DNA from: Streptomyces drozdowiczii | Lineage (GTDB): Bacteria > Actinomycetota > Actinomycetes > Streptomycetales > Streptomycetaceae | DNA length: 64,000 bases | Reading direction: 5' to 3' | Assembly: GCF_026167665.1 (NCBI RefSeq) | Contig: NZ_CP098740.1 | Coordinates: forward strand, 3,596,001-3,660,000 | Part shown: one piece after another, positions 27,576 to 46,014 of the stretch | Layout: the number at the start of each line of letters is the position of its first letter | Numbering within the stretch: the first letter of the stretch is position 1 | Translations under genes and position numbers: made by a program | The notes under the pieces: model-generated | Seen by the model: only the letters and a program-made list of their open reading frames with translations | Told to the model about the DNA's origin: nothing | Database searches by the model: none

Positions 27576-27712
27576 AGCCCGTCCGGCGCTTGAGGACAAG
27601 GCGCGTGCCCCGGTCCGGCGCGGAGGGTTCCGTCCTCAAGCGCCGGACGGGCTGGGTTTGTCCGGATGGGCCGGGTGCGCGGGTATTTCAAGCCCGTCCG
27701 GCGTTTGAGGAC
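27576..27712. repeat. Cluster A of 22-bp inverted elements (3 copies)
   Basis: The element reads AGCCCGTCCGGCG-n-TTGAGGAC. Copies: 27576-27597 (forward), 27632-27653 (inverted, GTCCTCAAG-CGCCGGACGGGCT), 27691-27712 (forward). The first two can pair into a hairpin with a 22-bp stem. The cluster fills the intergenic region between the VOC gene and the convergent NAD-binding channel gene, so it may act as a terminator. Similar elements occur in cluster B. Confidence 0.9.
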
Positions 27713-27751: not shown

Positions 27752-29677
27752 TCAGACGCCGGAACGGCTCGCGCGGCGGCGGCCCAGCAGCTCCGCGAGG
27801 CCGCGGCGTGTGGCCGCGATGATGACGCGGTCCGTCGGGCGGAGCACGTAGCCCGGGTGGAGGTTCCAGACGAGGGAGCCGGGGGCCACGTCCAGGGCCA
27901 GGACGCGCCAGGCGCCCTCGCGGAATGCCTGGTCCACCGTGCGGCCTTCCAGCTGGGGGTGGCCGCCCACCTCCACCGCCGCGAACAGGAGCACCTTGCG
28001 CTCGACCGGGATCGCGCCCAGGATCTGCCGGCCCATCATGGCGACCGCGAAGGACGGGCCCGCCAGATGGGAGACCGAGCGGGAGCGGGTGATCGCCTGC
28101 GGGTGCGCCGTGCGCAGCGTGCGGTAGACCGCCGTGGCGAACTCGTCGTCGAACAACCGCACCGTCACCCGCAGATTCGGCTTCAGCGAGCGCGCGTACA
28201 GCGCCGCCTCCAGGTTCGTCGTGTCGATGCTGGTCAGCGCGAGGAGCCCGCGTGAGCGGCCGATCTTGGCCGCCTCCAGGACCCCCTCGTCCGTGACGTC
28301 ACCGAGCACCACCGGCACATGCAGCCGCCGGGCGAGGGGGATGCCCCGCGCGTCCGGGTCCTCCTCCACGCAGACCACCGGGATGCCCAGCTCCCGCAGG
28401 TGCACCAGGACCCGGGTGCCGATCTTGCCGAGCCCGAGCAGCACCACGTGCCCGGAGAGCCCGCGCGGCGGCCGCCGCAGCGAGGACGCGCTGCGCAGCG
28501 AGCCGAACGCCTCCAGGACCCCCGCCACCAGCAGCGGCAGGAGCATCAGGCCCGCGATGCCGGAGAGGATCTGGATCACCTGGCGGGCGGTGGGCTCACC
28601 GATCGCCGGATCGCCCATCGCGAAGAGGTCGAGCAGGGTGAGGTAGGCCGCGTGCAGCGGATGGTCGCCGGTCGTGAACGAGGACGCCACCGCGAGCCCG
28701 AGCACCGCCAGCCCGACGCCCAGCGCCGACCACCGCAGCCGCCGCGAGAAGAACTGGCTGAGCGGCGCGCCCCGGCCGCCCATCCGGGGCTTGGGGGCAG
28801 CGGGCCCGGACTGCGTGACGGCCTCCAGGACGACCGTGCCGCGCCCGGTCGCGGCGGCGATCTCCGCAGGCCCGGGCAGCAGCTGCGGTCCCTCCGCCCC
28901 GCTGCTGTCGGAGCCCTCCGCGCCCGCCGGGTCGTGGGTGGTGGAGGAGAGCAGGGCCAGGGTGCACAGGCCGGGGTTCGCCACCTGGCCGCCCGGCGGC
29001 GGGGTGCGCTCGGCGGCCCGCAGGAACAGGCCCTCGGCCCGGATCACCCGGGTCGAACCGGCGAGCGCGGTGGCCGCGAGGGCCGGCGCGGCGGTGTCCG
29101 CGTCGGACAGCACCGTGGTGGAGGCGTCGATCGCGGCCGGGTCGAGCCCGGGGGACGCGACGGCCGCCGCCTGGTCGAGCAGGGTCTCCAGATGCTGGCC
29201 CAGCTTCCGGTTGTAGAGCCGGATCACCAGCCGCACACGGGGGTTGAGCCGGCGCGCGGTCAGCGCGGCCCGGATGTTGCGCTCGTCGTCGTCGTAGACG
29301 AGGGCGACCGCCGACGCCCGGGCGATGCCCGCCTCCGCCAGCGCCTCGTCGGACGGCTCGGCCGCCTGGAGGATGCGCACCGCCTCGACACCCGCGAGGG
29401 AGTCCCCGTCCGCTCCGTGCGGCAGCCCACCGCCGTTGCGGTTCATCGCGGACGCCATCCGCCCGAACAGCGCGGCGGCGCGCCCGCGCCCGCTCAGCGG
29501 CTCGTCCGGCCTGACCGCGCCCGGCTCCGGCGGCACGACGAGGGTGACCCGCTCCCCGTACACGTAACGCAGCTCCACGGCGAGCCGCTGGGCGAGCGCG
29601 TCGTCTCCGCAGACGACCATGTGGCCGGTGAACGGGGAGGGTTGGGGTTGCTGGGGGAAGGACACATGGCCCAGCAT
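27752..29677 (-). CDS. NAD-binding two-RCK potassium-channel-like protein
   Basis: 641 residues. A first TrkA-N/Rossmann domain (about 18-160, HMVVCGDDALAQRLAVEL) precedes two membrane segments (about 315-340 and 380-405) with an intervening pore-like loop (TLLDLFAMGDPAIGEP). A second RCK domain follows (about 425-550, GHVVLLGLGKIGTRVLVHL and VPVVLGDVTDEGVLEAA), then a C-terminal RCK_C/TrkA-C region with LHPGYVLRPTDRVIIAATRRG. The pore loop lacks the canonical GYGD filter, so ion selectivity is doubtful. It may be a Castor/Pollux-like cation channel or a sensor. It is last in the minus-strand flotillin-ATPase block, 31 bases from the ATPase stop, with GGAAGGGAG before the ATG. Confidence 0.85.
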   Translation of the reverse strand: MLGHVSFPQQPQPSPFTGHMVVCGDDALAQRLAVELRYVYGERVTLVVPPEPGAVRPDEPLSGRGRAAALFGRMASAMNRNGGGLPHGADGDSLAGVEAVRILQAAEPSDEALAEAGIARASAVALVYDDDERNIRAALTARRLNPRVRLVIRLYNRKLGQHLETLLDQAAAVASPGLDPAAIDASTTVLSDADTAAPALAATALAGSTRVIRAEGLFLRAAERTPPPGGQVANPGLCTLALLSSTTHDPAGAEGSDSSGAEGPQLLPGPAEIAAATGRGTVVLEAVTQSGPAAPKPRMGGRGAPLSQFFSRRLRWSALGVGLAVLGLAVASSFTTGDHPLHAAYLTLLDLFAMGDPAIGEPTARQVIQILSGIAGLMLLPLLVAGVLEAFGSLRSASSLRRPPRGLSGHVVLLGLGKIGTRVLVHLRELGIPVVCVEEDPDARGIPLARRLHVPVVLGDVTDEGVLEAAKIGRSRGLLALTSIDTTNLEAALYARSLKPNLRVTVRLFDDEFATAVYRTLRTAHPQAITRSRSVSHLAGPSFAVAMMGRQILGAIPVERKVLLFAAVEVGGHPQLEGRTVDQAFREGAWRVLALDVAPGSLVWNLHPGYVLRPTDRVIIAATRRGLAELLGRRRASRSGV

Positions 29678-29707
29678 GCCTTGCTCCCTTCCGTTGATCG
29701 AGGACGG

Positions 29708-32700
29708 TCAGCGGCCTTCGGGGTGCCGCGCCAGCAGGTGGCGCGGGTCGGCGGCGCGCCCGATCGCCGTCTCGACGGCCGCGATCCGGTCCGCGAGCAG
29801 CCCCAGCGCCGCCACCGCGCGGGTCATCGGATCGCCCTCGGGCCCGCCGAGCGCCTGGGTGCGGAGGTACGAGGAGCAGAGCGCCGCCCACCGCTCGGCC
29901 TGCGCGGGCGTGAGCGTGCCCCGCAGCGCGGCGAGCTTCAGGAGCGCGGCCTCGGCGCCGCTGGTCAGGGTCTGCGCCTCGCCCGCGTAGTGGTCGTCCA
30001 CGACGGCGGACAGCTCGGCGTCGTTCATCACGGGCGCGATCCGCTCGGCGATCCGGTTCATGTTGCGGTACGAGCCCTGGAGCCGGAACGGCGGTTCGGT
30101 GCGGGTGGCGTCGGTCTGCGCGGCGGAGGCGATGTACGCGGCGTTGACCGCGAGCACCGTCTCCCGGGCCCGCAGCAGATGCCGCAGAACGGCGGTGATC
30201 CGCTCCACCTCGGCGGGCGCGTAGGGGTGTTCCAGCTGTTCCGGGCGGGCCGCCGGGTCGTCGGAGGCGAGCCGCAGCAGCAGCGCCAGGTCCTCGCGGG
30301 AGCGGCCGGCGAGCGGGGCGAGGACCGGGTTGGCGGTCAGCGCGTTCTCCACGAAGCTCAGCGCGAAGACGTCCTCGCGGCCGGACAGCACCTCGCCCAG
30401 ATTCCACACGTCCGCCCGGTTGGCGAGCATGTCGGGCACCTGGAAGCGCGCCCCGGACTCGGTGTACGGGTTGCCCGCCATGCACACCGCGAACCGCTTG
30501 CCCCGCAGGTCGTACGTGCGCGGCTCGCCGTCCCGTACGCCCTCGACGCGGCGCGTGGCGTCGCAGAGCGGGATGAACTTCTGGAGGAGTTCCGGCGAGG
30601 TGTGCTGGATGTCGTCCAGGTAGAGCAGGGTGTTGTTGCCCGCCTCCAGGGCGAAGTTGATCTTCTCGATCTCCTGGCGCGCGGTGGCGCTGCCCGCCCG
30701 CGCGGGGTCGAGCGAGGTCACGTCGTGGCCCAGGTTCGGCCCGCTGATCTTGACGAGGACGAGCCCGAGCCGGTCGGCGACGTACTCCATGAGCGTCGTC
30801 TTGCCGTAGCCGGGCGGCGATACGAGCAGCAGCAGGCCCTGCGAATCGGTGCGGCGGTCGGCGTCGGCGGTGGAGAGCTGCTTGGCGAGGCTGTCCCCGA
30901 TCAGCGGCAGGTAGACCTCGTCGAGCAGTTGGTTGCGGACGAACGCCGACATCACGCGCGGGCGGTGGTCGTCGAGCCGCAGCCGGGTCCGCTCGGCGGC
31001 GACCAGGGCGGTGCGGCGGCGCTGGTAGGCGCGGAATCCGGGGACGACTTCCCGGCGGAACTCCTCGGTCCGGGAGAGGAGTTCATCGATGCGGACGGTG
31101 AGCCGGCCGCGTTCGATGCGCGGGTGGACGCCGAGGAGTCCGTCGACGGTCTCGGTGAGCGGCGCGTCCGCCTCGTACCGGCCGAGCAGGGGCTCGGGGC
31201 ACAGCTCCACGGCGACGGCCTCCGCGAGGTCGCCCGGGTCGATCTCCGTGCCGCTCGCCCCGGCGTACGAGGTGAGCCAGCCCTCCACGAGCTGGCGCCG
31301 GGCGGGCAGGTCGTCCGCGAGGGCCGCGAGGTCGTCGTCGTACGCGGACGTGCCGGTGGCGTGGCGGAACTTGTCCAGGAACGCGCGGACGGAGGCGCCC
31401 GTCGCGAAGCCCTCGGGCCCGCCGGTCAGCTCCTCGAAGAGGTAAGAGGCGACGGACCGCGCGCCCTCGCCGCCGATCACCGCCGCCCACTCCTCCTGGA
31501 GCGCGTCGACCGCCGGGGCGAGCCCGAAGGTCTCCCGGGCGCGGGCCAGCGAGCGGGCGCGGCGCGTCCAGGAGGTGCGGCGGGCCTCGTCCGTCCCATG
31601 GGCCCAGAACAGCTGGGCTGCGGCCCGGACGGCGGGCGGGAAGCGCAGCAGCCCGGCGCCCGCGTGCAGCCGCAGCAGCGCGGCCAGGATCGCGGTCGCG
31701 TCCTCGTCGTGGACACCGCGCTGGTAGCCCTCGTCGTACGCGGCGGCTGCCGACTCCCGCACGAGCGCCGCGAGTTCGCCGTCGTCCAGGGAGGCGAGCC
31801 GGTCCGCGCCGTGCTCGTCGAGGAGGCGGGCGGCCAGGTGCTCGCCCCGGTAGACCGCCGGGGACTCGGACGGGAGCGTCTGGTCCCAGTACGGGCGGGT
31901 CGCGGCGAACTCCGGGTCGGTGACCGGCATCCGGTAGTCGGTCCCGGTGACGGCGAACGCGAGCGTGCCGTCCTGCGGCACGAGGGTCAGCTCGAACGGC
32001 TGGGTGTTCACCGCGAACCGGTGCCGGCCGAGGCGGATCACGGACCCGCCGTCCGCGTACAGCTCGTCCCGGTCGCGCAGGGCCCTCCCCGCCTCCTGGC
32101 GGGCGGCGAGCAGCTGCCCGTCCAGCTCCTCCGCGCGCACGGTGTCCCCGAGCGCCCGCAGCTCCTCGGCGGTCCGGCGGATCTTGGCGACCATCGGGTC
32201 GGAGGCGAAGTAGGTGTGGACGGCGTCCGCGTCGGGGAGGGCGGCGCCGCGCCGGGCGACCGTCTCCAGGACCCGGGCGGCGGAGTCCGCGAGGCGTTCG
32301 GTGCGGCGGGCCAGCTCGTCCTGGAGGCCCTGCCTGCGCGCCGAGAACGCCTCGTACACCTCGGTCCGGCGCTCGCCCAGCTCCGCCAGGAAGTCGTCGT
32401 ACTCCGCGAACCGCGCCTCCAGGTCCTCCAGCTGGAGCAGTAGCCTGGCCAGCTGCCCGTCGCAGGACTCCGGCGTGTCGGCGGCGGCCAGCGCGGCCGT
32501 GACGGCCTGCCCGAGCAGCGCGGACTCGGCGGCGAACTCGGCCCGGCCCTCGTGGTCCGCGAGGGCGCGACGGCGGGCGTCGAGCGTGGCGCGGGCGCGG
32601 TTGACGGCGCCCAGGACCTCCGCGATGCGTTCCAGGATCGACGTGCGGACCACTCCGTCGCCGATGTCGAGCCCGGCGACGACGTCCGTGACGGTGCTCA

Positions 32701-34584
32701 GGCCGTCCGTCATGGCGGCCAGCCGGTCCCCGAGCGCTCCGGCGTCGGTGACCGCGGCGATCTCGGCGGCCTCCTCGGTGAGGCGGGCGATGTCCTCGTG
32801 GTAGCCGGCGAACGCGTCGTCCTCGGCCAGGAAGGCGACCGCGCGGCGGGCGGCCGCCTCGATGTCCTCGGCGGTGGCGGCGGTCAGCTCCGCGATGCGC
32901 TCGGTGTCCGCGTGCCGCATCTCCGCGAGGGTCGCCAGACGGCCGTGCGCGCCGCGCAGTTCGGTGAGGCGGTCGACCCACTCGGCGGCGGTGCGCGGGG
33001 CCTCGCCACGGACGCGGCGGACCAGGGTGGTGATGCGGTCGGCGGTCTCGGTGAGCGCGTCGGCGGCCTGCCGGGTGAGGGCCTGGACCGCCTCGAACTC
33101 CGCGACGACCTGGCGCGCGGTCTCGCGCAGCTCGTCCAAGGGCTCGGCGAGGGAGCCCAGTTCGGCGTCGTCCAGCCAGTGGTAGCGGTCGCCCGCCCGT
33201 ACGCAGTCCGCGACCAGCCGGTCGTACACGGCGGCGGTCGGCGTCGTCTCGGACGCGGCGTGCGCGAGGGCCAGGCAGTCGGAGATCCCGCGCACGAGGT
33301 CGGCGTTGCCGACCCGGGCCAGGGGGCCTTCGCCCGCCGGGCGGGACGCGGCGTAGGTGTCGGAGACGTACGGCGTCTGCCAGCGCTGCAAGGGGTGGAC
33401 GCGCGCGGCGCTGCCCTCCACCTGGTCACGCAGAACCACCAGCGTGCCGTCGTCCAGCAGCGCGTGGCCCCGGCCCTGGAGCGGGGTGGCCACCTCCTGG
33501 CGGATCACGTTGTACGGAAGCAGCAGGCTGCGGCCGTCCTGGCGGGACCGGAAGACGTACAGCACGTCCTCGCCGTTCGGGGAGCGGACGGCCTCCTCGA
33601 AGACCGGGTCGGTGAGCGGTTGCGCGATGTCGAAGGTCCTGGCCTCGCCGGTCGTCAGGTAGAAGCCGCCGGGGAAGATGATCCCCTGGTCCTCCGGGAG
33701 CCGTTGGCAGGCCGGGCCGATGCCGTCGAGGCGGGTCACGGTGGACAGGAGCGCGTTGAAGACGAGGTAGCGCCTCGCCTCCTCCTTGTACGGGCGGACC
33801 CGCAGCAGCACGAGCGGGCCCAGCTCGGCGTACTCGACCTCGGCGTCCGCGAGCGACTGGAGGGGTTCGGTGACGGGCTCCTCGTAGATCCCCTCCTGGG
33901 TCTCCGTGTCGTTGACGGTCTTCACGGTGAGCGTGCCGCCCAGCGTGTCCAGGTACAGCTCGGCCTCGCAGCCGATGGCGATGTGCGGGTGGCGGCCCGC
34001 GACGTGGGCCTCGCGGCCGGCGGCCGTCCAGCTGAAGTCGTGCGACGGCGGGAAGACGTGGTCGCGCTCGCCGCGCGCGTCCAGGAACGCGCCGGGGGAG
34101 CCGTCGGGGTTGAGGGCCCAGCGCAGGACCCGGATGTCCTCGGCGGTGTCGCCGGTACGGAAGACCGCCAGCAGGCGGCCCTCGGTCCGGCGCAGCCGCA
34201 GCAGGCGGGCGTCGCGGAAGTAGCGGTGCAGGCCGTCGAATTCACGGACGAAGGAGGCGTCGGTGAGGGGGGTGCCGGTGCCGGGGGTGAGGTCGGCGGC
34301 GTAGAGCGCGAGCACGTCGTCGACGGCGGGGGCGTCCTGTCGGCCGGGGCCGCGTTCGAAGCCGAACAGCAGCTCGCCACCGAGTGCGACGAGGTCGCGG
34401 GGGGTGGAGGGGCGGTCCGTCCGGATCTGCTCGCTGCGGAGGAGCGTGAGGCCGGTGGCGCCGAACGCCTCGGTGCGGCGGGCGTTGAGGTCGGTGGCCC
34501 TGCGGGCGAGCTCGGTTGCGTGCGTACGGAGGCGGCGCCGCAGGACGTCGTAGTCCCCGGCGGCGGGGCGGTCACGGTGTCCAC
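29708..34584 (-). CDS. Giant AAA+ ATPase of the DUF3686/'DNA repair ATPase' type; frameshift near the start
   Basis: About 1,625 residues after one correction. A long N-terminal beta-rich region (about 60-470, DUF3686-like) leads to an extended coiled-coil middle (about 480-820), then a helical region, and a C-terminal AAA+ module with Walker A SPPGYGKTTLMEYVADRLG near 1285, Walker B LLYLDDIQH near 1345, and the sensor-like FAVCMAGNPYTESGARF. The ATPase sits beside flotillin, OB-fold and channel genes. AAGGAG (34591-34596) is 6 bases from GTG at 34584, but that start is out of frame unless one base is added to the CCCC run at 34555-34558. The only in-frame alternative, TTG at 34622-34624, has no ribosome binding site and lies in a repeat element. 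Confidence 0.82.
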
Positions 34585-34616
34585 TGGGTGCTCCTTGCGG
34601 TGTGGCTTGCGGCGGT

Positions 34617-34836
34617 GTCCTCAACCGCCGGACGGGCTCGGACTTGCCGTCCAGGCGTCCTCAATCGCCGGACGGGCTTGGGAGGTGTGCCGGACGGACT
34701 GGAAGTGACCGCTGGGCGGGGCTTGAAGGCCAGCCCGGCCCCACTCAGCCCGTCCGGCGATTGAGGACGGACGGGGCTGGGGTGGGCGTTCAGGTCGTGG
34801 ACGGGGCCCCACCCAGCCCGTCCGGCGTTTGAGGAC
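34617..34836. repeat. Cluster B of 22-bp inverted elements (4 copies)
   Basis: Copies of the same element as cluster A: 34617-34638 and 34657-34678 (inverted), then 34747-34768 and 34815-34836 (forward). Each half pairs with copies of the other orientation. They occupy the 287-base gap between the flotillin stop and the ATPase start, which has no gene. They may attenuate or terminate transcription between the two genes. Confidence 0.9.
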
Positions 34837-34871
34837 GGACGGGGCCCGGTGGGGCGTTCGGCAGCGGACCC

Positions 34872-36971
34872 CTACGACACCGGCGTGCCGTTCAGGCCCG
34901 GCCGGGCCAAGCCGCTGACCGGGACGTCCGCCAGGCCCAGCGACTTCGCGTGGTCGAGCAGCGCCCGGACCTGGTCCGCACCGACCCCCGACGATGGCGC
35001 AGCCATCATCCGCATGAGCAGCGCCGACACCGTCAGGTTCTGCACATCGCCCGTCGAGACCGACGACAGCACCCGCGTCAGATCCTCCGTGAACGAGGAC
35101 TCGCCGTTCAGCCACGGACCGGCAAGCGCCTTCGCCGTATCGGAGTTCCCCACGAAGCCGTCCAGGCTCTTGCCCATCGAGATGGACGACACCAGCCGGT
35201 CGAAGAAGACCGACTCGCCGCCGACGATGTCGATGTCCGCGTTCTCCAGCCCCGTCGCGAGCACCGCCGCCTGCGACTCGGCGACCTGCCGCTGCACGTC
35301 CAGACCCGCGAGCCGGATCTCCTTCTCGGCGGCCAGCCGCAGCCGGTACTCCTCGTGCCCGCGCGACGCGTCGTCCAGCGCCGCCATCGCGGCCGCCTTC
35401 TCCGTGAGGCCCGCGGCCTCCGCCTTCAGCTTCTCGCCGATCACCGCCGCGTCGGCCGACGCCTGCGCCTGCGTACCCTCCGCGTCCGCGAGGGCCTTGA
35501 GACGGGCGCCCTCGGCCTCCGCCTTGAGCCGCGCGGACGTGGCCCCGGCCTCGGCGAGCCCCGTTTTCTCGATCACCTCCGCCGCCGCGTCCCGCACCTG
35601 GACGTCCGCGAGGCCGGGCGCCGCCGACTCCGCCTGGATGCCCTCGGCGAGCCGCAGCTTGGCCTGCGCGTCGAGGTCGGCGGTCTTCAGCCGGGCCTCC
35701 GCGAGCGTCAGCTGCTCGGCCGCCCGGTGGGTGGCGGCGGCCTCCGCGGCCTCGGCGGCCTTGATGTCCTTGACCAGCCGCTCCTGCGCCTCCGCCTCGG
35801 CGGCGATGATGACCGACTTGCGGGTGCGCTCGGACTCCTCGACGGACCGGAGCGTCTTGATGGACTCCTCCTGCTCGGCGACCGTGCGGTCCACCGCGAT
35901 CCGCTCGCGGATCACATCGGCGACCTCGCGGCGCTCCGCCTCGACCTCCTTCGTCGCGGCGATGCGGTTCAGCTCGGTCTCGCGCTCGCGCCCGATGACC
36001 TCCAGCATCCGGTCCTTCTCGATGCGCTCGTTCTCCACGGCGATGACCCGCTCGCGGTTCTTCTGCGCGACGGCGATCTCCCGGGCCTGGTTCTCCCGCT
36101 GGATGCCCAGCTGCTCCTCGGTCCTGATGAACGCGGCCTGGGCGCCCAGGCGTTCCTCCTCCTGGACCCGGGCGGTCACCGCCTCCTCGCGGGCCCGCAG
36201 CGTCTCGACCTCACGGCGCTGCTTGATCTCCGCCTCGGCCTGCCGGCGCTCCAGCTCCAGGATGGTCTCCCGGGCGTCGACGTCCTGCCGGGTGATCTCC
36301 TTCTGCTCGGTGCGCTGGAACTCGTTGGTGCGGACGTGCTCGATCGCGGTCAGCTCGGTGATCTTCCGGATGCCCTGGGCGTCCAGGATGTTGGCGCTGT
36401 CGAGCTGCGCCATCGGGGTCTGCTCCAGGAAGTCGATCGCCGCGTCGTCCAGGTGGTAGCCGTTCAGGTCGGTACCGATGACCCGGATGATCCGGTCGCG
36501 GAACTCCTCGCGCTTCGTGTACAGGTCCACGAAGTCCAGCTGCTTGCCGACGGTCTTCAGCGCCTCGGAGAACTTCGCCGCGAAGAACTCCTGGATGGCG
36601 ACCTTGTCGCTGGCGCGCTCGGTACCGATGGACTGGGCGACCTTCTTGACGTCCTCGACGGTCTTGTTGACCCGCACGAAGAACGTGATGTGGATGTCGG
36701 CGCGGATGTTGTCCTGGCAGATCAGACCCTCGCGCCCGGTGCGCCGGATCTCGATGGTCTTGACCGAGATATCCATGGACTCGGCCTTGTGCAGCACCGG
36801 CAGGACGACGGCACCGGTGAAGGTCACGTCGACCTTCTTGGTCTTGGAGATGATCAACGCCTTGCCCTGCTCCACCTTGCGGAAGAGCCGGGTGATGATC
36901 AGCAGCACGGCTACGGCGATGAGGAGGACCACGGCGACGAGCAGGCCGAGGCCCAAGGAGATGGCATCCAT
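34872..36971 (-). CDS. Flotillin (SPFH/band-7 family)
   Basis: 699 residues. A TM anchor (about 6-28) is followed by the SPFH domain (about 35-200, KALIISKTKKVDVTFTGAVVLPV ... EIRRTGREGLICQDNIRADIHITFFVRVN) and a long coiled coil (about 205-480, rich in EAEIKQRREVE and EAEAQERLVKD-like heptads). A C-terminal flotillin-type region with GGESVFFDRLVSSISMG near 600 completes it. It is close to the YqiK/FloT-like type that assembles membrane microdomains. AAGGA lies 6 bases before the ATG. It follows the OB-fold gene in one operon, with parS site 3 in the 116-base gap. Confidence 0.92.
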   Translation of the reverse strand: MDAISLGLGLLVAVVLLIAVAVLLIITRLFRKVEQGKALIISKTKKVDVTFTGAVVLPVLHKAESMDISVKTIEIRRTGREGLICQDNIRADIHITFFVRVNKTVEDVKKVAQSIGTERASDKVAIQEFFAAKFSEALKTVGKQLDFVDLYTKREEFRDRIIRVIGTDLNGYHLDDAAIDFLEQTPMAQLDSANILDAQGIRKITELTAIEHVRTNEFQRTEQKEITRQDVDARETILELERRQAEAEIKQRREVETLRAREEAVTARVQEEERLGAQAAFIRTEEQLGIQRENQAREIAVAQKNRERVIAVENERIEKDRMLEVIGRERETELNRIAATKEVEAERREVADVIRERIAVDRTVAEQEESIKTLRSVEESERTRKSVIIAAEAEAQERLVKDIKAAEAAEAAATHRAAEQLTLAEARLKTADLDAQAKLRLAEGIQAESAAPGLADVQVRDAAAEVIEKTGLAEAGATSARLKAEAEGARLKALADAEGTQAQASADAAVIGEKLKAEAAGLTEKAAAMAALDDASRGHEEYRLRLAAEKEIRLAGLDVQRQVAESQAAVLATGLENADIDIVGGESVFFDRLVSSISMGKSLDGFVGNSDTAKALAGPWLNGESSFTEDLTRVLSSVSTGDVQNLTVSALLMRMMAAPSSGVGADQVRALLDHAKSLGLADVPVSGLARPGLNGTPVS

Positions 36972-37007
36972 GACAGTCCTTGGCGGCAGGTGGTACGGAA
37001 ATGAGTG

Positions 37008-37021
37008 GTTTCACGTGAAAC
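37008..37021. promoter_or_regulatory. parS: parS centromere site 3 (ParB binding)
   Basis: Perfect GTTTCACGTGAAAC palindrome in the gap between the YqiJ-like gene and flotillin, 36 bases before the flotillin ATG on its upstream side. Confidence 0.93.
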
Positions 37022-37087
37022 ACGGCGCGGCGGCACACGGCGTCCGGGCAGCCCGGACGGGCACACCGCGCCCTTGGCGGCGGTGGC

Positions 37088-37732
37088 TCAGACGGCGGGG
37101 CCGGAGGCCGTACGGCCGTGCGGCGGACCCGGGTCGAGCGCCTTGTCGAAGGCCGCGACCCAGAAGAACTCCCCGGCCTCGTCGTACGCGTACAGCAGTC
37201 CGGAGCGTCCGGAGGTCAGCTCCGCGTCGACGGGCTCCAGCTGGCGCACCTGGACGGTGGCGGTGGTCCCATCGTCGGCGGTGACCTCGGCCTGGCCGAA
37301 GTCCGTGGAGACCGTGCCGGTACGGATCGTGCAGACGCGGCCCAGGAAGTCCTGGCGCGATGGCGGAGGCTGGTCGGGGAAGTAGCGCCGGAAGTGGTGG
37401 ACGAGCAGCCGCACCGCACCCCAGGCGAGCAGCAGCGCCCCGGCGAGCACCGCGCAGGCCAGCACGGCGCGCAGCGGTCCGGTGGCGCCCGAGCGGTGCA
37501 CCAGGACCGAACCGGTCAGGGCGGAGAACCAGCCGACGGCGATCATCAGGGACACCGAGACGGTGACCGGGACGCCTCCGACGCCCGCGAGATCGGCGTC
37601 CAGGTCGGCGTCGAAGGAGTGGTGGTCGGCCGCGCCGACCAGGACGAGCAGCCAGAAGGCGATGACGACGACCAGCGCGGCGGCGAAGAGTACGGCCGGG
37701 AAGGACAGCGTCGCGTCCAGGAATTCCCGCAT
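37088..37732 (-). CDS. YqiJ-like OB-fold membrane protein
   Basis: 214 residues with an N-terminal TM (about 8-32, FPAVLFAAALVVVIAFWLLVLVGA), two more (about 53-75 and 85-108), and a C-terminal OB-like domain (about 130-195: FLGRVCTIRTGTVSTDFGQAEVTADDGTTATVQVRQLE) typical of YqiJ/NfeD-related partners of flotillins. In E. coli yqiJ pairs with the flotillin gene yqiK, and the same order occurs here. It is likely the first gene of the operon, with the shared inverted repeat about 200 bases upstream. The start has only a weak GGGGG ribosome binding stretch. Confidence 0.83.
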   Translation of the reverse strand: MREFLDATLSFPAVLFAAALVVVIAFWLLVLVGAADHHSFDADLDADLAGVGGVPVTVSVSLMIAVGWFSALTGSVLVHRSGATGPLRAVLACAVLAGALLLAWGAVRLLVHHFRRYFPDQPPPSRQDFLGRVCTIRTGTVSTDFGQAEVTADDGTTATVQVRQLEPVDAELTSGRSGLLYAYDEAGEFFWVAAFDKALDPGPPHGRTASGPAV

Positions 37733-38038
37733 CGGTATCGACCCCCTGCCGTTCCGTCGGCGGTGTCGCCGGCGTCCGCGCGGACCGGTCGGGACCCCGG
37801 TGCCGCGGCGTCGCCCTCGACGACACCGCGGCAGCCGGGTCTTCCCCCGATCCCCCGTGCACCCCCGTGTTTCCCCCGTTGGTCCCCCGGTCGGTGCTGA
37901 CCGGATCGTGTCATCCGGGCCCGCCCGATCGCATTGCCGGAATGCGGCAACGTTCGCCGCTCCCCGATGCCGGGCACCGGCACCGCCCCTCGTGCGTTGG
38001 GGCTGGTGGCGGTACGGAATGGAAACGGAGGCGGACGC
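37733..38038. other. Divergent intergenic region between YqiJ-like and PucR-like genes
   Basis: 306 bases with no gene. It contains the 20-bp shared inverted repeat at 37932-37951 and the SD of the PucR-like gene (GGAGG 38027-38031). C-rich runs (CCCCC) fill the middle. I see no other structured element. Confidence 0.6.
37932..37951. promoter_or_regulatory. Shared 20-bp inverted repeat, copy 1 (flotillin operon 1)
   Basis: CATTGCCGGAATGCGGCAAC: arms TTGCCG and CGGCAA around a 5-base centre. It is 200 bases before the YqiJ-like ATG and 88 bases before the divergent PucR-like ATG. Copy 2 before the NfeD/SPFH pair matches at 18 of 20 positions. The motif occurs nowhere else I noticed in the window, and it looks like an operator. 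Confidence 0.7.
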
Positions 38039-39124
38039 ATGGCGGAACCGGTGATTCCCGACAGTTTTCTGGAGGGGTACGCACGGATACTCGGCGAGGC
38101 GGCCGTCTCGGGCCGCCGGCTCACCCGCGAGGAGCTGGACTCCCGCCGCACCCTGGGCCGGGAGGCCGCCGAGGCCGGCCACCAGCTCCGCGCCCTGGTC
38201 CGCATGCATCTCGCCGAGACCCGCGCCGCCTGGCCCGCCCCCGCCCCCGGCGCGACTCCGGCCGCCGTGGCCGCCGCCGCGGACAGCGTGCTGGCCGCGA
38301 TGGAGCAGGCGGTCGACGCGTTCGCGGACGGCTTCGAGCGCGCCCAGCGCCTCACCGTGCGCCGCGAGGAGGCCGCCAGACGGGAGTTCATCGACGACCT
38401 GCTGTACGGGCGCAGCGATCTCGGCCGGCTCGCCGAGCGGGCCACCCGCTTCGGGCTGCGCCTCTCGCGCGCCCACGCCGTGGCGGTCGCGACCGGCCCG
38501 GAGGCGTACACCGAGACGGAGGCGGTGCCCCGGCAGGTGGAGTCGGCGATGCTGGCCCGGTTCGGCGGGCGCAAGATCCTGCTCACCACGAAGGACGGGC
38601 GCATGGTGTGCGTCGCGCCCGGCAGCCAGCCCGACGTCCTGCGCTACTTCGCGAAGCAGGCGCACGCGGCGACGGACGGCGGCCGGGTCGCCATCGGCCG
38701 CGCCCACCGGGGCCCCGGCGGCGTCGTCCAGTCGTACGACGAGGCCCTGGAAGCGCTGGACCTGGCGGACCGGATGGACCTGGACGACCCCGTGCTGTTC
38801 GCCGCCGACCTGCTGGTCTATCCGGTGCTGACCCGGGACCGGCAGGCCATGGCCGATCTCGTCCGCAGTGAGCTTGGCCCGCTCCAGAAGGCCAGGGGCG
38901 GCGCCGAACCGCTCCTCAGGACGCTGTCGGTGTACTTCGACGCGGGCTGTGTCGCCGCCGAGACCGCCCGCCGCCTCTCGCTGAGCGTCCGGGCCCTCAC
39001 GTACCGCCTGGAACGCATCCACCAGCTGACCGGCTCCGACCCGGCGGACCCCCAGCACCGCTACACGCTCCAGACCGCGGTGATCGGCGCCCGGCTCCTC
39101 GACTGGCCCGCCAAGGAGGTCTGA
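38039..39124 (+). CDS. PucR-family transcriptional regulator
   Basis: 361 residues from ATG with GGAGG 7 bases upstream. A helical N-terminal region of about 120 residues precedes a GGDEF-like beta/alpha middle region (about 120-250). The C-terminal PucR/CdaR helix-turn-helix (about 300-360) has LLRTLSVYFDAGCVAAETARRLSLSVRALTYRLERIHQLTG, the family signature. Such proteins activate catabolic or stress genes. Its position divergent from flotillin operon 1, with an inverted repeat between, makes it the likely controller of that operon. Ligand not deducible. Confidence 0.88.
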   Translation: MAEPVIPDSFLEGYARILGEAAVSGRRLTREELDSRRTLGREAAEAGHQLRALVRMHLAETRAAWPAPAPGATPAAVAAAADSVLAAMEQAVDAFADGFERAQRLTVRREEAARREFIDDLLYGRSDLGRLAERATRFGLRLSRAHAVAVATGPEAYTETEAVPRQVESAMLARFGGRKILLTTKDGRMVCVAPGSQPDVLRYFAKQAHAATDGGRVAIGRAHRGPGGVVQSYDEALEALDLADRMDLDDPVLFAADLLVYPVLTRDRQAMADLVRSELGPLQKARGGAEPLLRTLSVYFDAGCVAAETARRLSLSVRALTYRLERIHQLTGSDPADPQHRYTLQTAVIGARLLDWPAKEV

Positions 39125-41965: not shown

Positions 41966-43204
41966 TCACTCGGTGGACGCCGAGACCTCTTCCCGGGCTG
42001 CGGGCACCGCTTCACCGCTCGCGACCGGCGCGGGTGCGCCCCCGTCCTTGCCGCGCCACTTCTGGACGCGCTCGACCACCGGCTGGGTCCAGCGCGCGGT
42101 GAGCGGGCCGACGATGACCAGGATCAGGACGTACGCGGTGGCGATGGGGCCGATGCGGGGCTCCGTGGCCACGGCCAGCCCCGCGATGACGATGGAGAAC
42201 TCGCCGCGCGCGACGAGCGTGCCGCCCGCCCGCCAGCGCCCGCGCGGTCCGATGCCGGCGCGCCGGGCGGCGTACCAGCCGGTCCCGATCTTCGTGAAGA
42301 CGGTGACGATCGCGAGCAGCGCGGCAGGCAGGAGCACCGGCGGGATCTCGGCCGGGTTGGTGGAGAGTCCGAAGAACACGAAGAAGACGGCGGCGAACAG
42401 GTCCCGCAGCGGGGTCAGCAGCTTGCGCGCACCCTCCGCGACCTCACCCGAGAGCGCGATGCCGACGAGGAACGCGCCGACGGCGGCCGACACCTGGAGC
42501 TGCTGGGCCACCCCGGCGACCAGGACGGTCAGCCCGAGCACGACGAGCAGCAGCATCTCCGGATTGTCGGAGGACACCGCGCGGCTGATCAGCCGGCCGT
42601 GCCGCAGCGCGAGATAGAGCACGAACCCGACCGTGCCGAGCGCGATGAGCAGCGCGATGCTGCCGCCGGCGAGCCCGACGCCCGCGAGCATCGCGGTGAG
42701 CAGGGGCAGATAGACCGCCATCGACAGGTCCTCGATGACCAGCACCCCGAGGATGACGGGTGTCTCCCGGTTGCCGAGGCGTCCCAGGTCCGTGAGGACC
42801 TTCGCGATCACGCCGGACGAGGAGATCCAGGTGACACCGGCGAGCGCGACGGCCCCGACCGGGCCCCAGCCGAGCATCAGCGCGGCGATCGCGCCCGGGG
42901 TCGCGTTGAGCACGAAGTCCACGGCCCCGGACGGGTACTGCGTCTTCAGGCTGGTCACCAGCTCGGACGCGCTGTATTCGAGACCGAGCAGGAGCAGCAG
43001 CAGGATGACGCCGATCTCGGCGCCGACGGCGGTGAACTCCTCGCTGGCCCCGAGCGGCAGCAGCCCGCCCTCGCCGAAGGCCAGCCCGGCCAGCAGATAG
43101 AGGGGGATCGGCGAGAGCCCTATCCGGCCGGCGAACCGCCCGATGATGCCGAGTCCCAGGATGACGGAGCCGAGCTCCATGAGCAGTGCGGTCGTGTCGT
43201 GCAC
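41966..43204 (-). CDS. CPA2-family K+(cation)/proton antiporter, KhtU-like
   Basis: 412 residues, twelve or thirteen TM segments. Conserved stretches include LYLLAGLAFGEGG (TM2-3), LEYSASEL, LVIEDLSMAVYLPLL (the acidic exchange motif ED-type residue), and SVAVGAFLVGIALSGE-like membrane repeats. It starts at GTG, 2 bases after the stop of the RCK_C subunit gene (TGACCGTG), with GGAGGG upstream. The pair resembles KhtT-KhtU of Bacillus, a K+/H+ antiporter gated by its soluble subunit. It would act in the cytoplasmic membrane in pH or K+ homeostasis. Confidence 0.9.
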   Translation of the reverse strand: MHDTTALLMELGSVILGLGIIGRFAGRIGLSPIPLYLLAGLAFGEGGLLPLGASEEFTAVGAEIGVILLLLLLGLEYSASELVTSLKTQYPSGAVDFVLNATPGAIAALMLGWGPVGAVALAGVTWISSSGVIAKVLTDLGRLGNRETPVILGVLVIEDLSMAVYLPLLTAMLAGVGLAGGSIALLIALGTVGFVLYLALRHGRLISRAVSSDNPEMLLLVVLGLTVLVAGVAQQLQVSAAVGAFLVGIALSGEVAEGARKLLTPLRDLFAAVFFVFFGLSTNPAEIPPVLLPAALLAIVTVFTKIGTGWYAARRAGIGPRGRWRAGGTLVARGEFSIVIAGLAVATEPRIGPIATAYVLILVIVGPLTARWTQPVVERVQKWRGKDGGAPAPVASGEAVPAAREEVSASTE

Positions 43205-43206
43205 GG

Positions 43207-43677
43207 TCAGCCCTCCGCGATGATCTCGGAGAGCGTGTCGACGCCCTCGCGTGTTCCGACGGCGATGAGCGTGTCGCCGATGGCCAGCCGGAAGTCCGGC
43301 CCGGGGGACGGGTGCGCGCTGTGGGTGCGCAGCACCGCCACGATCGAGGCGCCGGTCCGGGTCCGCGCCTTGGTGTCGCCGAGCAGCCGGCCGCCGTACG
43401 GCGAGCGGGTGCCGAGCGGGATGTGCTCGGTGACCAGGTCGATGCCCTCGGTCCGTACGGCGTCGATGGGCGCCGCGTCGATGAGGTGCGCGAGACCGGT
43501 CGCCTCCTGTGGGGTCAGGGGTACGGAGAGCCGGCACGAATCAGGGTCGTCCTGGTCGTAGAAGCCGATGAACCGCCGCCCGTCGTGGTGGACCACGACG
43601 GAGATGTGCTGCCCCGACTCGGTGGTGTAGTCGTACTGGACGCCGACTCCGGGCAGCGTGGTGCGGTGGGTTCCCAT
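43207..43677 (-). CDS. RCK_C (TrkA-C) regulatory subunit of the antiporter, KhtT-like
   Basis: 156 residues. The C-terminal RCK_C domain (about 85-155) has GASIVAVLRTHSAHPSPGPDFRLAIGDTLIAVGTREGVDTL. The N-terminus (1-80) is a beta-rich KhtT-like domain (LPGVGVQYDYTTESGQHISVVVHHDGRRFIGFYD). GGGAGGAAGCC lies before the ATG. It is translationally coupled to the antiporter gene. RCK_C domains can bind c-di-AMP in other bacteria; this is not shown by the sequence here. Confidence 0.88.
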   Translation of the reverse strand: MGTHRTTLPGVGVQYDYTTESGQHISVVVHHDGRRFIGFYDQDDPDSCRLSVPLTPQEATGLAHLIDAAPIDAVRTEGIDLVTEHIPLGTRSPYGGRLLGDTKARTRTGASIVAVLRTHSAHPSPGPDFRLAIGDTLIAVGTREGVDTLSEIIAEG

Positions 43678-43820
43678 GGCTTCCTCCCGAGGAGCGCGGT
43701 ACGCGCGAGGCACTTGGCGATCTCTTTAGACCCGCATTACCTTATCCGGAGGTATGCGCCACCCCCGAGGGACGTTTTCCGGCCACCGGCCCGGTGCAGT
43801 CCGGGGCCCGGCACACGAAT

Positions 43821-43872: not shown

Positions 43873-45327
43873 TCAGTCGCCGATCTCGATCTTCCCGTTC
43901 TTCTCGGCCGAGGCCGTCGAAGCCGCCGGGACCGCCGGCTCGGCGGCGGCCGGCTTCGGCACCGCGCCCTTGAGGTTCTGGAGCAGCGCGGCGAGGTCGA
44001 CCCCGGTGGTGGAGGAGAGCAGCTCCATGCCCTGGGCGACGTTGTCCGTGACCGTACGGGACAGCTGACTGGCGCCGTCCGTGGAGATGACGGTCATCTT
44101 GTCGATCGCGCTCATCGGCTCGGCGGCCTTGGCGACGACCTGGGGCAGCACCTCGACGAGCATCTGGAGCACGGCCGCGTCACCGTACTGCGCGAAGGCG
44201 TCGGCCTTCTTCTGCATGGCCTCGGCCTCCGCCGAACCGCGCGCCGCGATGGCGGCGGCCTCCGCCTCGCCCTCGATGCGCACCGCCTCGGCGAGCGCGG
44301 AGCGGTGCAGCTTCTCGCCCTGACCGGTCAGCCGGGCGCGCTCGGCGGCCGCCTCGGCCTCCTTGACCTGGGCGATGCGGCGGGCCTCCGCCTCCTGCTC
44401 CGCCTGGTAGCGGGCGGCGTCGGCGGGCTTGCGGACCTTGGTGTCCAGCTCGCGGTCGGTCAGCGCGGCCTGGCGCTCGGCGACCTTCTCCTGCTCGGTG
44501 AGCACTTCCTGCTGGCGGGCGGCCTCGGCGAGCGGACCGGCGGCGTTGGCCTTGGCGGCGGCCGCCTCGGTCTCGGCCTTGATCTCGGCCTGCTTCAGGT
44601 AGAAGGTCCGCTCGGCGATCGCGATCTCCTCGGCGGCCTTCAGCCGGGCCTGCTCCGAGGCGCGGCGGGCGATGGCCTCCGCGATGTCGGCCTCCTGCTT
44701 GGCGCGGGCGGCCTCGGGGCGGCCCAGGTCCTCCAGGTAGGAGCCCTCGGTGGTGATGTCCTGGATCTGGAAGGCGTCCAGGATCAGGCCCTGGCCGGAC
44801 AGGCTCGCCTCGGCCTCCTCCGCCACCTGCCCGGCGAACGCGGCGCGGTCGCGGATGATGTCCTCCACGGACATCCGCCCGACGATGGCGCGCAGCGCGC
44901 CGGACAGCACCTCCTGGGTGAAGCCGACGATTCCGTCCTGCTGGCGCAGGAAGCGCTGGGCGGCGGCCCGGATGGCGTCCTCGCTGCCGCCGACCTTGAC
45001 GATCGCGACGCCTTCGAGGTGGGCCTTGACCCCGCGCAGGGTGACGGCGCCGCGCACGGCGACCGGGATGTGCCGGCTGGACAGGTCCAGGGTGAACTTC
45101 TGCTGGACGAACGGCACGACGAAGACGCCGCCGCCGACGACGACCTTCTGGCCGCTGTTGTCGATGCTGGTCCGGCCGGTCACCGGGTCGACGGACTTCT
45201 TGCCCCGGCGGCCGGTGATGATGAACGCCTGGCTCGGGCCGGCCACCTTGTAACGGGTGATCACGGCGAGGGCGAGCAGGAAGAGGAGTACGACGACTCC
45301 GACGATCGCGATCATTACGGGACTCAT
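43873..45327 (-). CDS. Second flotillin/SPFH-family protein
   Basis: 484 residues. A TM anchor (about 4-26) leads to a SPFH domain (about 30-200: YKVAGPSQAFIITGRRGKKSVDPVTGRTSIDNSGQKVVVGGGVFVVPFVQQKFTLDL region) and a long Ala/Glu-rich coiled coil (about 205-370; EAEARRIAQVKEAEAAAERARL). The C-terminal flotillin-like tail has AFAQYGDAAVLQMLVEVLPQVVAKAAEP. It is shorter than flotillin 1 and of the FloA/YuaG-like sort. A NfeD-like gene lies just upstream (70 bases) on the same strand. It ends in a terminator palindrome. Confidence 0.92.
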   Translation of the reverse strand: MSPVMIAIVGVVVLLFLLALAVITRYKVAGPSQAFIITGRRGKKSVDPVTGRTSIDNSGQKVVVGGGVFVVPFVQQKFTLDLSSRHIPVAVRGAVTLRGVKAHLEGVAIVKVGGSEDAIRAAAQRFLRQQDGIVGFTQEVLSGALRAIVGRMSVEDIIRDRAAFAGQVAEEAEASLSGQGLILDAFQIQDITTEGSYLEDLGRPEAARAKQEADIAEAIARRASEQARLKAAEEIAIAERTFYLKQAEIKAETEAAAAKANAAGPLAEAARQQEVLTEQEKVAERQAALTDRELDTKVRKPADAARYQAEQEAEARRIAQVKEAEAAAERARLTGQGEKLHRSALAEAVRIEGEAEAAAIAARGSAEAEAMQKKADAFAQYGDAAVLQMLVEVLPQVVAKAAEPMSAIDKMTVISTDGASQLSRTVTDNVAQGMELLSSTTGVDLAALLQNLKGAVPKPAAAEPAVPAASTASAEKNGKIEIGD

Positions 45328-45396: not shown

Positions 45397-45906
45397 TCAG
45401 CGTTCGACGGGACGGACCGACACCGATGTGCTGGAGAGCGACGCCTCGACCCAGACCTCGGCGCCGCGCGCGACCGGCACCGTGCACTTCGCGGACAGCT
45501 TCACGAGGTGGCCGCCGAGGCGGACCAGGACCTCGCCGTAGCCGTCGGCCGGGATCGCGGTGACCACGGAACCCGAGGTGCCGACCAGGTCCTCGCCGCG
45601 CGGCGTCGCGTCGGTCTGGTCCCGCATCAGGGCGCGGCTGAACTTCCAGGTCAGCAGGGCGGCGGCCACCCCGGCCGCGGCCCCCGCCGCGGTGGCGACG
45701 AGGGTGCCCGCACCGGTCGTGCCGAGCACGATGGCGCCGCCGAAGCCGAGCATCGACAGGAAGCCCGCGATCACCGGAAGGGAGACGAGCCCGCCGAACA
45801 GGCCCTCCAGCAGGCCCCCGAAAAGGCCCTCCAGAATCCCGTCGAAGACCAGCGACAGGGCGAGCAGGGCGACCCCCGCGATGCCGAGACCGAGAAACAA
45901 GGTCAT
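45397..45906 (-). CDS. NfeD-like membrane protein, partner of SPFH 2
   Basis: 169 residues. TM segments at about 3-22, 35-55 and 58-80 (GFLSMLGFGGAIVLGTTGAGTLVATAAGAAAGVAAALL) precede a C-terminal OB-type beta domain (about 105-165, LVGTSGSVVTAIPADGYGEVLVRLGGHLVKLSAKCTVPVARGAEVWV). This is the short NfeD/OB-fold layout that accompanies flotillin-type proteins. An unusual GLLEGLFGG repeat (DGILEGLFGGLLEGLFGGL) occurs at 22-40. Copy 2 of the shared inverted repeat lies 86 bases before its ATG. Confidence 0.83.
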   Translation of the reverse strand: MTLFLGLGIAGVALLALSLVFDGILEGLFGGLLEGLFGGLVSLPVIAGFLSMLGFGGAIVLGTTGAGTLVATAAGAAAGVAAALLTWKFSRALMRDQTDATPRGEDLVGTSGSVVTAIPADGYGEVLVRLGGHLVKLSAKCTVPVARGAEVWVEASLSSTSVSVRPVER

Positions 45907-45991: not shown

Positions 45992-46011
45992 CATTGCCGG
46001 AACCCGGCAAC
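45992..46011. promoter_or_regulatory. Shared 20-bp inverted repeat, copy 2 (NfeD/SPFH operon)
   Basis: CATTGCCGGAACCCGGCAAC, differing from copy 1 at only two central bases. It lies between the peroxiredoxin stop (46015) and the NfeD-like start (45906) on the minus strand, the right place for an operator or activator site of the NfeD/SPFH pair. Confidence 0.7.
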
Positions 46012-46014
46012 CTT

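Follow-up and report, generated by a model that had tools for sequence, protein, structure and literature searches.

The closest described relative of the genes treated here is an operon of a flotillin, an AAA+ ATPase with a coiled coil and a beta-propeller, and a YqiJ/YuaF protein (PMC11237479). According to the excerpts of that paper considered here, the operon occurs with or without PspA and a CesT/Tir protein, the versions that lack PspA being called "abbreviated"; PspA proteins are partners of the trio in proteobacteria, and chaperone-like membrane roles have been proposed. Excerpts of other papers bear on the flotillin side: human flotillin forms a cage-like scaffold on membranes (PMC11260169), the SPFH cage of stomatin associates with aquaporin-1 and UT-B (PMC12407830), and the sigma-W regulon of Bacillus subtilis, which includes yuaF-yuaG, is induced by alkaline and salt shock (PMC3498285). 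In the present study, we analyzed 64,000 nucleotides of Streptomyces drozdowiczii DNA (NZ_CP098740.1, positions 3,596,001 to 3,660,000; the window), in which genes for a YqiJ-like protein, a flotillin-like protein, a giant ATPase with a DUF3686 domain and a protein with two RCK domains follow one another. The first three are the known operon (the trio), of which the window carries the Streptomyces variant. Two features go beyond the literature consulted: a predicted regulon defined by a PucR-type regulator and a palindrome, and recurring cation-gene neighbours. The prediction that this regulon spans both the trio operon and a second flotillin operon is well supported by comparative genomics. 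The features concerned are as follows.

27752..29677, minus strand: two-RCK protein (RCK, two hydrophobic segments, RCK), 641 amino acids; from Pfam TrkA_N and hydrophobicity
29708..34624, minus strand: DUF3686-DUF7902-AAA+ ATPase, open reading frame of 1638 amino acids, start uncertain; from Pfam, alignment and core model
34872..36971, minus strand: flotillin-like protein, 699 amino acids, one N-terminal hydrophobic segment; from cluster matches and HHalign
37088..37732, minus strand: YqiJ-like membrane protein, 214 amino acids, three hydrophobic segments; from cluster matches and topology
37932..37952, no strand assigned: predicted operator 1, 21-bp palindrome in the divergent promoter region; from motif match
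38039..39124, plus strand: PucR-type regulator (GGDEF_2 and HTH_30), start codon assigned by hand; from Pfam
41966..43207, minus strand: antiporter of the Na+/H+ exchanger family (PF00999); from Pfam
43207..43713, minus strand: TrkA_C-domain protein, 168 amino acids; from Pfam
43873..45327, minus strand: second flotillin, FloT2 (flotillin 2; Band_7 and Flot); from Pfam and phmmer
45397..45906, minus strand: small membrane protein upstream of FloT2, resembling NfeD/YuaF in position and topology only
45992..46012, no strand assigned: predicted operator 2, exact TTGCCGNNNNNCGGCAATG match; from motif match

An earlier note on this DNA, made from its letters, had placed the first four genes consecutively on the minus strand and taken them for one membrane system; their coordinates and order are confirmed. 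The intergenic gaps are 116 bp (YqiJ-flotillin), 247 bp (flotillin-ATPase) and 30 bp (ATPase-RCK). An intergenic repeat (GTCCGGCG-TTGAGGAC and its complement) is present in seven copies at 27581-27711 and 34617-34835 of the window, directly past the 3' end of the RCK gene and inside the flotillin-ATPase gap; two copies were found across the 20 control stretches. Beyond that note, the window holds a divergently oriented PucR regulator, a shared palindrome and, 8 kb away, a second run with flotillin and antiporter genes.

The gene divergent from yqiJ is of the PucR type (PF17853, 75.2 bits; PF13556, 60.8 bits), and between the two genes lies the 21-bp palindrome CAYTGCCGGNNNCCGGCARTG. We compared 112 Streptomyces loci around the ATPase gene, drawn from 110 of the 147 ATPase-positive genomes with the other 37 left out, and used 20 random regions from the same genomes as controls. 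With tblastn, a PucR gene was detected at 87 of 113 loci and in none of the 20 random regions. With at most two mismatches of 18, the palindrome occurs 0.1-1.5 kb before the flotillin gene in 99 of 113 loci and in 0/20 controls (at three mismatches, 105/113 and 5/20). The 14 loci missed at two mismatches comprise 12 whose best match has 3-6 mismatches and two without a flotillin match. In all 13 ATPase genomes that had a site (at most three mismatches) and no PucR gene in the stretch, PucR was found elsewhere in the genome; six further genomes were checked for PucR, of which four matched and two (G129 and G151) did not. A sigma-70 promoter scan found none. The listings of our literature search, in which subscription papers were outside coverage, included the trio paper and showed nothing on this regulator or operator; none of the papers listed joined PucR with flotillin, and none named DUF3686. 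In excerpts of PMC13118837, a pucR-like gene appears only in connection with a fatty-acid locus.

Genome-wide, the exact pattern YTGCCGGNNNCCGGCAATG occurs in 124 of 295 Streptomyces genomes, and the reversed pattern, as a control, gave four matches (rows counted by hand). The S. drozdowiczii genome itself (7.39 Mb, one contig) has two exact TTGCCGNNNNNCGGCAATG matches, both inside the window; allowing one mismatch added no place in this genome, and the backwards control gave three. Named homologues at 93-96% identity likewise point to Streptomyces. Of the 141 distinct sites listed, 68 are found 2.3-4.0 kb upstream of the DUF3686 domain, a position directly ahead of the trio, and a further 20 precede flotillin 2 by 0.47-0.86 kb. 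Another 27 were placed by hand: 16 before PucR and two more (genomes G111 and G118) via PucR positions, five 142-168 bp before a CPA1 exchanger (G003, G009, G113, G169 and G274), three (G214, G232 and G242) via the comparison of sites with neighbouring genes described below, and one (G232) before an ATPase gene without a detected flotillin. A PucR gene is present in 30 of 31 genomes that lack the ATPase and have a site, compared with 2 of 20 genomes without a site; the 31 are those listed, at least three more (G071, G102 and G144) being outside the test, and the 20 were hand-chosen among many. These 31 genomes and our own contain 37 sites; 28 of them have PucR, flotillin 2 or RCK at most 1 kb downstream, including 19 at 82-342 bp before PucR itself.

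Operator 2 precedes a same-strand run of the small membrane protein, flotillin 2, the TrkA_C protein and the Na+/H+ exchanger, which we infer from strand and spacing to be one transcript. Flotillin 2 matches the flotillin-1 chain 9bq2_B (phmmer, E 5.4e-41). The small membrane protein has four hydrophobic stretches, two of them overlapping, and no Pfam match; the TrkA_C gene stands on the same strand immediately upstream of the antiporter in 12 relatives. Across the 113 loci, 22 additional sites were found at up to two mismatches: seven lie 141-211 bp before a CPA1 Na+/H+ exchanger, six lie 707-774 bp before flotillin 2, six are near a PucR gene and four have no assigned gene, with overlap between the classes. 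Distances in this comparison, including the 700-bp limit used here and below, are measured to the start of the tblastn match, not to the start codon. Within 700 bp and at three mismatches, a site accompanies 11 of 21 CPA1 genes, 3/20 AGCS, 2/11 NhaD/CitMHS and 1/4 TrkH genes, and none of 26 UspA genes.

Genes of cation transport also recur around the locus. A Na+/H+ antiporter, sodium-alanine symporter, NhaD/CitMHS, Ktr/Trk or RCK gene is present in 69 of 113 stretches against 0/20 controls, and in 56/113 if RCK is not counted. NhaA alone is found in 24 of 113 stretches, where by our own arithmetic about 0.4% would be expected; genome-wide, 100 of 101 genomes have it, with about 1.5 copies. 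On the ATPase tree, the presence of any cation gene changes 20 times and that of RCK 13 times; thus, the cation association is recurrent and was not inherited once. TerB or TerD genes were found in 26 stretches and in 1/20 controls.

Our best reading of these observations, which we hold to be probable, is that the locus encodes a flotillin scaffold under PucR control, which the ATPase remodels and which serves cation and pH homeostasis. For the mechanism of the set we infer the following course. The divergently transcribed PucR-type regulator would bind the 21-bp palindrome and thereby control itself, the trio operon and the second flotillin operon and, in some species, possibly also a Na+/H+ exchanger or the RCK protein. 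By analogy with the SPFH family, the flotillin-like protein and YqiJ may build a membrane scaffold or cage, and the giant ATPase may spend ATP to assemble, load or dismantle it. Cation antiporters and the RCK protein could then be clients or co-effectors of the scaffold, holding monovalent cations and pH under membrane stress. The membership of yuaF-yuaG in the sigma-W regulon, which responds to alkaline and salt shock (PMC3498285), fits such a reading. A more specific version, in which a PucR responsive to cations or pH raises flotillin cages that enclose antiporters and the RCK pore protein, and the MoxR-like ATPase of 1,600 residues opens, loads or resets the cages, is offered tentatively and may well prove wrong; if it were true, cages and ATPase would form an ATP-driven membrane compartment for ion homeostasis. 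For the question of what bacterial flotillins do, a sharply defined operator gives a small, testable regulon. That this operator stands before both flotillin operons, and before some Na+/H+ exchangers as well, directs attention to cation and pH homeostasis, and the regulator could serve as an on-off switch for a flotillin system in soil bacteria of a genus amenable to genetics.

Several observations weigh against the homeostasis reading or the regulon on which it draws. The operator consensus was derived from the same loci in which it was counted, and the genome-wide counts weigh more for that reason. A looser half-site pattern (YTGCCGNNNNNCGGCAR, one mismatch) is not enriched in the S. drozdowiczii genome (361 matches against 456 for the backwards control). 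Of the 141 listed sites, 53 lie outside the trio and flotillin 2 intervals, 26 of them unplaced even after the 27 placed by hand, and four of the 37 sites mentioned above directly follow the 3' end of a PucR gene that has diverged. When three mismatches and a distance of up to 700 bp are allowed, none of 25 NhaA and none of 15 CPA2 genes, and only 3 of 40 RCK genes, have an operator of their own. The list of cation families was drawn up post hoc, with only 20 control regions; 44 of 113 stretches have no such cation gene, and beyond Streptomyces the diverse set described below shows the cation link at a single Nocardia locus. In that locus (L251), NhaA and then TerD follow the ATPase on the same strand. 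For the ATPase, Foldseek places RuvB level with NorQ as a match to the AAA core model.

The trio itself recurs in several phyla. In addition to the Streptomyces loci, we used a diverse set of 80 loci found with an ATPase profile (35 Pseudomonadota; 29 Actinomycetota, 10 of them Streptomyces; 11 Myxococcota; one Planctomycetota; one Lentisphaerota; three unplaced); neighbouring genes in both sets were called with a crude custom caller of open reading frames, and the YqiJ and RCK counts in Streptomyces loci were made by tblastn. A neighbourhood search of the kind that the earlier note had proposed shows a flotillin gene ahead of the ATPase gene, on the same strand, at 110 of the 112 Streptomyces loci and at 76 of the 80 diverse loci; a YqiJ-like gene accompanies the ATPase in 88/112 and 59/80, respectively. 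YqiJ, flotillin and ATPase are thus conserved as a unit, and the concern that homologues might not be adjacent does not apply to them. At locus L083, the ATPase and a YqiJ-like gene occur with an exact operator and no flotillin match between them.

The names of the two smaller proteins of the trio need qualification. Pfam found no SPFH domain in the flotillin-like protein of the window at E up to 1, matched Band_7 in 1 of 13 aligned family members, and no PDB chain was hit by the family profile up to E 1; HHalign aligned the profile with flotillin 2 at E 1.1e-5 and 82% probability over residues 46-206, the SPFH region. The window protein matches all 76 members of the upstream cluster of the diverse loci. 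The sole relevant PDB match of the YqiJ profile is YuaF (E 0.89), and the window YqiJ-like protein matches 40 of the 59 members of its upstream cluster. Because the sequence evidence is remote, both labels lean on the operon as given in excerpts of PMC11237479.

In Pseudomonadota, the diverse loci have DUF2170 (21) and PspA_IM30 (19) upstream of the trio, in agreement with the proteobacterial PspA partners given in PMC11237479. After the ATPase, some Pseudomonadota loci (for example, L216 and L249) carry rhomboid (9), PLD/phospholipase-D (9) and TelA (4) genes. The upstream neighbours, as well as the chaperone-like membrane roles with PspA proposed in PMC11237479, would agree with an envelope-stress machine in which the ATPase acts on PspA/ESCRT-III-like filaments in the manner of Vps4 and the ion genes are incidental. 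However, the PspA cluster of the diverse set is limited to Pseudomonadota, none of the four genes of the window run encodes PspA, and PspA is absent from the identified recurrent neighbours in Streptomyces, where some clusters lack identification. The extension of the operator to exchangers and the resemblance of the AAA core model to CbbQ/NorQ in one of two comparisons also speak against this explanation, which we regard as unlikely.

The DUF3686 N-terminus and the AAA+ domain that the earlier note had assigned to the ATPase are both clear in Pfam (DUF3686 with 574.6 bits at residues 38-482, plus DUF7902 and AAA). Four motif stretches, which we take to be Walker A, Walker B, sensor 1 and sensor 2, contain residues that do not vary among 20 aligned sequences. 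The first 12 or so residues of the reading frame are doubtful because a 96% identical homologue (P0007) begins differently; the start region, 34570-34624, is out of frame relative to the beginning of that homologue. The AAA+ core was modelled from residues 870-1638 and came closest to the MoxR-family proteins CbbQ and NorQ in one of two structure comparisons; in the model, it looks MoxR/NorQ/CbbQ-like. NorQ and CbbQ act together with partners containing a VWA domain. NorD VWA appears in titles of the structure matches; the recurrent clusters of neighbours, of which only some representatives were identified, showed no VWA gene. DUF3686 is present in 147 of 295 Streptomyces genomes; a phylum sample in which Streptomyces was included has it in 8 of 296 genomes, belonging to 2 of 198 genera. 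The ATPase also matched 12 of 72,556 PLSDB records, among them plasmids of Streptomyces, Deinococcus and Pseudomonas that carry DUF3686 ATPases (H1, H3-H6).

The fourth gene behaves differently from the trio. The earlier note had called its product a two-RCK channel: TrkA_N was indeed found in two stretches, with two hydrophobic segments in the centre. The label "channel" is unproven, because MGDPA, with M, D, P and A invariant in 29 aligned sequences, stands where a TVGYG-type selectivity filter would be expected, and no such filter is present in the pore-loop region. The AlphaFold model was poor (mean pLDDT, the predicted local distance difference test, 47.7). That note also held the four proteins to act as one system, which in its strict form would be an obligate complex of YqiJ, flotillin, ATPase and two-RCK channel. 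The 30-bp gap on a common strand, and the repetition of this arrangement in 24 of 112 Streptomyces loci with gaps of 31-298 bp, would suit such a complex. However, on the ATPase tree these 24 loci group with the window in a single supported clade of 25, RCK was found at 2 of 80 diverse loci, both Streptomyces, and the RCK gene is commoner than the ATPase gene (257 against 147 of 295 Streptomyces genomes). We therefore rejected RCK as a constant fourth partner, and an obligate four-protein complex appears improbable; of the proposed system, the trio recurs, and RCK joined the trio operon itself in one clade. The RCK link to the locus is nevertheless more than chance, because RCK occurs in 40 of 113 stretches against 0/20 controls (every match counted) and, at 16 of the 150 places listed, is no more than 5 kb from flotillin 2; in eight of these cases the two genes are divergent at about 0.8-1.0 kb. 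RCK also stands elsewhere near the locus in several other arrangements. Fragmented RCK matches beside the trio at L022 and L024 suggest decay of the gene in some species.

A further possibility is that ion genes, RCK and Ter genes merely share a rearranging chromosomal region and are functionally unrelated to the flotillin operon. The ion genes differ between loci in order, strand and identity, and their absence from the 44 stretches noted above would be expected if so. However, one operator precedes the trio, flotillin 2 and CPA1 exchangers, and the 20 changes of any cation gene and 13 of RCK on the ATPase tree mean that the link recurs; we give such hitchhiking little credence. The palindrome, a GC-rich inverted repeat that in the case of operator 2 was flagged as terminator-like on the plus strand, might instead be a transcription terminator or repeat element. 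Its position between divergent genes in trio loci, the conservation of its letters beyond mere pairing, and its tracking of the PucR gene across genomes, with 19 of 37 sites just upstream of that gene, make this very improbable. A role of the ATPase in DNA repair, given by Pfam and NCBI names, was rejected as resting on the database name only and is scarcely credible, since its constant neighbours are membrane proteins and the only repair gene noticed among recurrent neighbours is of the RecJ type, in seven Pseudomonadota loci.

Compared with known systems, the window ATPase may share its AAA+ core fold with NorQ and CbbQ of the MoxR family, as one of two comparisons of its model suggests, and differs from them by about 1,200 extra N-terminal residues. 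Like the stomatin and flotillin cages, the proposed scaffold would be an SPFH membrane scaffold; those cages, as described in the excerpts considered, are of human proteins without an operon for a dedicated AAA+ ATPase. The yuaF-yuaG (floT) pair of B. subtilis, with SPFH2/NfeD2, joins a small membrane partner to a flotillin as here; unlike the window genes, it is under Sigma-W control, and the excerpts of PMC2636767 and PMC3498285 mention no DUF3686 ATPase. Section 19 of PMC11237479 mentions no PucR regulator, operator, second flotillin operon or Na+/H+ exchangers for its operon, and that paper places a potassium channel in another operon group, with polyamine genes. It is with this operon that the window has the three genes YqiJ, flotillin and ATPase in common, and they stand together in relatives in the order and strand seen in the window.

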